A stretch of 64,000 bases of DNA, taken from assembly GCA_018335935.1 (NCBI GenBank), contig JAGXRG010000012.1:124001-188000 (forward strand). The letters are read 5' to 3'. The notes under the pieces are model-generated. The model saw only the letters and a list, made by a program, of their open reading frames with translations, was not told where the DNA came from and did not search any database. The stretch is from Chitinophagaceae bacterium (GTDB taxonomy: Bacteria > Bacteroidota > Bacteroidia > Chitinophagales > Chitinophagaceae). Positions within the stretch are counted from its first letter, which is position 1, and each line of letters opens with the position of its first letter. Below, one piece after another: positions 8,022-52,564 of this stretch. Both the position numbers and the translations under genes were made by a program.

Positions 8022-8054
8022 AACAAATATTTTAAATCCGATTTTTTCGGACGG

Positions 8055-8085
8055 CAAAAGTAGGGTTTTACTGATAAATAACAAA
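8055..8085 (-). promoter_or_regulatory. Bacteroidota-type promoter of rplS (TTTG-N19-TACTTTTG)
   Basis: Minus strand: TTTG (8085-8082), 19-nt spacer, TACTTTTG (8062-8055), followed by CCGTCCGAAAAAA. Confidence 0.8.
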
Positions 8086-8482: not shown

Positions 8483-8552
8483 TTTTCTAATTTTTACAAA
8501 TAACTGAAATTACTTTTATAACTGAACTTACATTTGCATTTTTATTATCATC

Positions 8553-17756: not shown

Positions 17757-17786
17757 AATAAAACCCGATTTTTTTAATTCGGGGTG

Positions 17787-17794
17787 CAAAAGTA
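17787..17794 (-). promoter_or_regulatory. Putative -7 element TACTTTTG of rpsA
   Basis: Minus strand TACTTTTGCACCCCGAATTAAAAAAATCGGGTTTTATTATG. Confidence 0.6.
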
Positions 17795-52125: not shown

Positions 52126-52156
52126 TTTGGTAGTTCCACTACATTATATACTTTTG
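52126..52156 (+). promoter_or_regulatory. Bacteroidota-type promoter of rpsL (TTTG-N19-TACTTTTG)
   Basis: TTTG 52126-52129, 19-nt spacer, TACTTTTG 52149-52156, then CCGTCCGAAAAAAA. Confidence 0.82.
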
Positions 52157-52183
52157 CCGTCCGAAAAAAATATACAGAGGATA

Positions 52184-52564
52184 ATGCCTACAATACAACA
52201 GTTAGTAAGAAAAGGACGCGAAATCATTCGTGCAAAAAGTAAATCTAGAGCTTTAGACGCTTGTCCACAACGCCGTGGTGTTTGTACAAGAGTTTATACA
52301 ACAACACCTAAAAAGCCAAACTCGGCTTTACGTAAAGTTGCTAAAGTTAGATTAACCAACAAAACAGAGGTTATTGCTTACATTCCAGGTGAAGGTCATA
52401 ATTTACAAGAGCACTCCATCGTTTTAATACGTGGTGGTCGTGTAAAAGATTTACCAGGTGTACGTTATCATATTGTTCGTGGTAGTTTAGATACTGCTGG
52501 TGTAAAAGATCGTAAACAATCTCGTAGTAAATACGGTACTAAGAAAGAAAAAGCTAAGAAGTAG
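52184..52564 (+). CDS. rpsL: 30S ribosomal protein S12
   Basis: [12 protein letters not shown]...[33 protein letters not shown]; start at internal Met, since the promoter covers the longer ORF start. Confidence 0.97.

Follow-up and report, generated by a model that had tools for sequence, protein, structure and literature searches.

In E. coli, the promoters of rRNA, tRNA, and ribosomal protein genes have GC-rich discriminators and are stringently controlled, and the rrn promoters form unstable open complexes that are tuned by ppGpp or by the initiating NTPs. That stable-RNA promoters have GC-rich discriminators is an old idea. In the Bacteroidota, the housekeeping promoter (sigma-ABfr) consists of TTTG at -33 and TAnnTTTG at -7, as described in PMC6847099, PMC9723704, and PMC7366714. 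Subtle variants of the sigma-A motif, SM1-3, are mentioned for F. psychrophilum in PMC9723704. Leaders of ribosomal protein genes are also described from Bacteroidota, for S15, S16, S4, and L13, together with an L19 leader (PMC7247131).

We analyzed a stretch of 64,000 nucleotides ("the window", ~31% GC) from the 2.86 Mb genome of a member of the Chitinophagaceae, in which rplS and rpsL share a sequence near their predicted transcript starts. Like the sigma-ABfr promoter, both sites have the -7 box, the -33 TTTG, and a spacer of 19 nucleotides, but unlike the general sigma-ABfr promoters of this genome, they add a fixed C-NNN-CC after the box. The shared sequence precedes the same set of genes as the E. 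coli discriminator, occupies the same interval from the -10 region to the start, and is likewise GC-rich in an AT-rich setting. It differs in the sigma factor and the -7 box, in having a defined C-NNN-CC, and in a predicted start at or beside the CC. Like the described leaders (PMC7247131), it lies upstream of ribosomal protein genes in the same phylum; but those leaders are structured RNAs inside the 5' UTRs of single operons, while the C-NNN-CC block lies on the promoters of several classes of genes.

A promoter element shared by rplS and rpsL

A first-pass annotation of the window had proposed that the similarity of rplS and rpsL extends past the core promoter. We found the 21-mer TACTTTTGCCGTCCGAAAAAA as exact copies at 8042-8062 (minus strand) and 52149-52169 (plus strand). 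There is no third copy in the window, even with up to 3 mismatches allowed, and there was none in 100 dinucleotide shuffles of the window. The similarity that the annotation described is real. The arrangement TTTG-N19-TACTTTTG was likewise confirmed at both genes, each with an exact TAnnTTTG box. A third member in the window, which the annotation overlooked, precedes rpsA, whose product has S1 domains (PF00575) by family search (Table 1).

Table 1. Coordinates of the promoter elements and genes in the window
Feature	Position	Strand	Basis or remark
rplS promoter, -33 element TTTG	8082..8085	-	sequence; 19 nt 5' of the -7 box
rplS promoter, -7 box TACTTTTG (TAnnTTTG)	8055..8062	-	consensus from PMC6847099 and PMC9723704
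rplS discriminator/start-site element CCGTCCGAAAAAA	8042..8054	-	C1 = 8054, C5C6 = 8050-8049
rplS leader, potential short 5' hairpin GTCCGA...TCGGAT	8035..8052	-	weak, unconserved in the family
rplS, ribosomal protein bL19, 117 aa	7668..8021	-	PF01245, E 4.9e-43
rpsL promoter, -33 element TTTG	52126..52129	+	sequence
rpsL promoter, -7 box TACTTTTG	52149..52156	+	sequence
rpsL discriminator/start-site element CCGTCCGAAAAAA	52157..52169	+	sequence, orthologue comparison
rpsL, ribosomal protein uS12, 126 aa, then rpsG	52184..52564	+	PF00164, E 1.2e-42
rpsA (bS1) promoter, third member in the window, TACTTTTG + CACCCCGAA (also given as CACCCCGAATTAAAAAAATCGG)	17765..17794	-	

The conserved core

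The bases that follow the box at rplS and rpsL are C1 C2 G3 T4 C5 C6 G7 A8. Among rplS promoters from 30 genera of Chitinophagaceae, this segment reads CCGTCC, CAGTCC, CCCTCC, CAATCC, CACTCC, CATCCC, CAGACC, and others, but C at positions 1, 5, and 6 is present in 30/30. The same three bases are present in all 29 of the Chitinophagaceae rpsL promoters with a box, most of which have CCGTCC (the commonest version in the family), and a TTTG-like -33 block is conserved at rpsL across the family as well. A GC-rich block between the -10 region and the predicted start is thus present, with C1, C5, and C6 invariant in 59/59 promoters of the two genes combined. The conserved core is TAHHTTYG-C-NNN-CC-N-AA, in which the -7 box of the Bacteroidota is followed by a C as the first base and by CC as the fifth and sixth. 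An A-rich run follows C5C6 in the rplS orthologues, and the TTTG of the box can be TTCG, as at rpsO, rpsP, and rpsU of the source genome.

In the general promoters of the source genome, positions 2-8 carry ~0.1 bit of information and position 1 carries 0.5, as compared to 2.7 bits at C1, C5, and C6 of the element; C is already at position 1 in 49% of ordinary promoters. At Flavobacteriaceae rplS, the CC pair is at positions 4-5 instead (CATCC, CAGCC).

The conserved unit is not the literal CCGTCCGAAAAAA of the first-pass annotation but is shorter and more widely distributed. We rejected that string as the functional unit because orthologues vary everything but C1, C5, and C6, and because the exact string TANNTTTGCCGTCCG was not enriched over its reversed control in 396 genomes of the phylum taken as a whole. 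This implies that the literal wording is one lineage's version of a looser rule. A search for TANNTTTGCCGTC with one mismatch did no better (40 hits versus 46 for the reversed control).

In Flavobacterium johnsoniae, mapped starts lie 4-5 nt past the -7 box (PMC6847099), and in F. psychrophilum the box spans -12 to -5 (PMC9723704). With starts 4-5 nt past the box, C1-A8 would correspond to about -4 to +4, with C5C6 at +1/+2, so at rplS the bases 8050-8049 are predicted to cover the transcript start. As it would be unusual for transcription to begin at a C, G7 or A8 may be the actual first base.

Specificity for ribosome-building genes

Because the signature was defined on rplS orthologues, rpsL and the genome-wide comparisons are independent tests of it. 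Across the source genome, TAHHTTYGCNNNCCNAA matches 28 places, whereas its reversal matches 4. Translation units lie downstream of 20 of these 28 sites, so that rRNA, tRNA, and ribosomal protein promoters carry the element together. The units are the rRNA operon (its 16S gene, confirmed by Rfam, begins ~290 nt downstream); six tRNA units (tRNA-Val, -Gly, -Met, -Asn, the tRNA-Thr operon, and -Lys); and 13 protein units (rpsU, rplK, rplY, rplS, rpsA, rpsL, rplU, rpsF, yceD-rpmF, rpmB, infA, prfA, and rpsT). The other eight precede a C4 zinc-ribbon protein, hppA, secDF, lspA, a CN-hydrolase, an M28-type peptidase (divergent from yceD), a methyltransferase-like frame, and a Skp-like protein, where the peptidase, methyltransferase, and Skp names were assigned by eye rather than by family search. 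About four non-translation carriers among the 28 are expected by chance. Partial matches only were seen at rpsO, rpsP, tRNA-Leu, and tRNA-Trp.

We also compared promoters with a recognizable box in selected stretches totalling 836 kb of the source genome. C1 and C5C6 are present at 10/14 translation promoters and at 5/140 others (Fisher p 1.7e-9), and this contrast is if anything understated, because the 14 omit three tRNA genes without a detectable box and one of the 140 others is rpsA, which was recognized later as a translation gene. The five others with C1 and C5C6 include glnS. Among genes that neighbor the Chitinophagaceae loci, 5/138 have C1 and C5C6, and three of these five are EF-G, S16, and TypA, which are translation genes themselves. 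The first-pass annotation had considered that the sequence might be absent from other ribosomal protein promoters or equally common at unrelated ones; it is found at many of the former and is rare at the latter. The proposal of a coordinated start-site element for ribosomal proteins holds in that many of their promoters share it, but the element is not restricted to them, as rRNA and tRNA units carry it too.

Several features near the element may be of separate interest. A boxA-like AGTTCTT(TAAC) lies ~5-20 nt past the element at the tRNA-Thr operon, tRNA-Gly, rplK, and rRNA operons, as would be expected for Nus-type antitermination. The C4 zinc-ribbon coiled-coil protein (PF02591) carries the signature at several loci (L012/L378, L104, and L154) and has a conserved leader of ~105-145 nt with ACTAATCCTGTAA; this gene may be ribosome- or growth-linked. 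Two distantly related Bacteroidota have the signature at hppA, the gene for the membrane H+-pyrophosphatase, and this points to co-regulation of hppA with ribosome synthesis. Bacteroidota normally lack Shine-Dalgarno-like sites. A strong one, AAGGAGG, is present at rpsU (~8520-8550 of locus L158), and AAGG or GAGG is often close to the ATG of rpsL in Chitinophagaceae.

Distribution across the phylum

A GTDB-wide scan with the long form, TANNTTTGCCGTCCGAAAA, gave at least 120 loci, of which 100 were from Bacteroidota and 20 from other phyla. Among the matches listed, translation genes follow the long form at 77 of the 100 Bacteroidota loci: 61 proteins (which, as classified, include two copies of the zinc-ribbon protein), 14 tRNA units, and 2 rRNA operons. 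Another 2-3 of the listed matches are at locus ends or outside the classifier, such as one at an L31-like protein. The other phyla serve as a built-in control for chance, and among the matches listed, 0/20 of their loci precede translation genes. In three genomes of Flagellimonas/Muricauda, the long form, here TAAATTTGCCGTCCGAAAA, lies ahead of the gene for a MarC-like membrane protein, which is apparently a conserved non-translation member.

RNA structure at the 5' ends

The first-pass annotation noted that rplS could fold as TCCGA/TCGGA. The complementary arms are there, but the hairpin is weak (-3.8 kcal/mol, z -0.5) and is not kept, as just 3 of 30 orthologues show it clearly. In Chitinophagaceae, the hairpin mean for rplS orthologues equals the shuffled mean, and pattern-selected rpsL sequences fall below it. 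In swap tests, 1992/5000 swaps reached the native pairing score for rpsL and 89/5000 for rplS, and a few genomes account for the rplS figure. We discarded a hairpin shared by Chitinophagaceae rplS and rpsL, as pairing was no better than in shuffled controls, and the conserved covarying structure of ribosomal protein leaders was not found at these two genes. No Rfam family matched at rplS or at the rpsL leaders that we tested. Within the source genome, 5 of the 28 elements pair well, including those of rplS, rpmB, and rpsA, while ~1 is expected, so in some mRNAs the CC may have a second use as one arm of a hairpin.

Flavobacteriaceae rpsL is a separate case. There we found a covarying 5'-terminal hairpin of 3-7 bp, such as CCCTC-AAAA-GAGGG, which begins at the predicted transcript start or close to it. 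It exceeds the score threshold in 66% of sequences, versus 3% of shuffles, and 0/5000 swaps reached the native pairing score. The tested leaders had no Rfam match, and this hairpin is a candidate for a new mRNA-stability or S12-operon leader element. Upstream of rpsL in family f18, there is a conserved TACATTGG-TTG-TCC-TTAT-GGAT block, which looks like a version of the shared promoter element in which the -7 box is shortened and a small hairpin is present. At Flavobacteriaceae rplS, what looks like an L19-type leader (compare PMC7247131) lies apparently downstream of the element.

Function of the element

The element lies at a constant distance from the -7 box, is nearly restricted to rRNA, tRNA, ribosomal protein, and translation factor units, and is deeply conserved. 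We propose, with a probability of roughly 0.6, that ribosome-building genes share it as an extended signature of their housekeeping-sigma promoters, which would act as a discriminator or start-site element so that these genes are tuned together. We infer that it acts at transcription initiation rather than as an RNA leader because it is shared with rRNA and tRNA units, its register is fixed, half of it is predicted to be untranscribed, and there is no common fold.

The first-pass annotation also offered a leader motif as an option. In that case, ribosomal protein mRNAs would carry a 5' hairpin that binds a protein or affects stability. A hairpin can form at rplS, rpmB, and rpsA of the source genome, and the Flavobacteriaceae rpsL hairpin outscored all of its swaps. 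But the same block precedes tRNAs, rRNAs, and more than 12 protein units, instead of being confined to the operons of a bound protein, and the 5' leaders of tRNAs and rRNAs are removed. The register to the box is rigid, positions 1-4 are predicted to lie ahead of the transcript, pairing at Chitinophagaceae rplS and rpsL is at the level of shuffled controls, and Rfam has no matching leader for rplS or the tested rpsL sequences. Known autoregulatory leaders are separate and lie downstream, as for the L19-type leader of Flavobacteriaceae rplS. We consider an RNA leader improbable as the explanation of the shared element. It seems highly improbable that the element is an operator, overlapping the start site, to which a dedicated regulator binds: conservation does go beyond GC content (most Chitinophagaceae rpsL promoters have CCGTCC), but the sequence drifts to CACTCC, CAACCC, CATCCC, or CAGACC while C1, C5, and C6 stay constant, it lacks dyad symmetry, and it keeps a fixed register to the -7 box.

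C-rich discriminators generally destabilize open complexes in the polymerases that have been studied. This speaks against another account, in which the C-rich bases past the box only add strength, by speeding initiation or promoter escape at the most active promoters, with no shared regulation. High expression is expected of all members, and other growth genes match partly (atpD, with CAGCCG) or fully (hppA), as this account would have it; but we found no such promoter at groESL, a classic highly expressed operon, in the source genome. We think that strength by itself is an unlikely explanation.

If the element is a joint discriminator, as we favor, then control by growth rate or nucleotide sensing is plausible given the set of genes. 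Where the surrounding genome has ~31% GC, a C-rich non-template strand from about -4 to +2 would be expected to give a short-lived open complex. With such a complex, ppGpp (with a DksA-like protein), initiating NTPs, or both would set the output of each promoter, as with the GC-rich discriminators of E. coli, and all of the ribosome-building promoters would be set together by ppGpp or NTP levels. The source genome does encode a zinc-finger protein of the DksA/TraR type. A bolder version, which we regard as doubtful, is that C-NNN-CC is a dedicated Bacteroidota start-site code on +1/+2 of divergent-sigma promoters that defines the ribosome-building regulon. The rRNA, tRNA, and ribosomal protein transcripts would then have cytosines at or beside their first base, and they would be throttled jointly by CTP/GTP level or by ppGpp, via a polymerase with a sigma factor that has no region 1.1. 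If true, this code would correspond, at the level of the promoter, to the 5'-oligopyrimidine rule of eukaryotes.

Novelty and significance

In the literature that we searched, we found no earlier description of a ribosomal protein, rRNA, or discriminator promoter element from Bacteroidota. The SM1-3 variants of F. psychrophilum (PMC9723704) may contain part of the element. What appears to be new is the form that it takes in Bacteroidota, with its consensus and the set of genes that carry it.

The Bacteroidota are a dominant phylum in the gut and the environment and have a divergent housekeeping sigma factor, and how they coordinate ribosome synthesis seems little described. With a short, fixed signature that can be read from genomes and is shared by rRNA, tRNA, and ribosomal protein promoters, reporters can be used to address the question directly. 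The signature would also allow growth-controlled genes to be predicted from any Bacteroidota genome, and it may guide the choice of parts for growth-coupled synthetic promoters.
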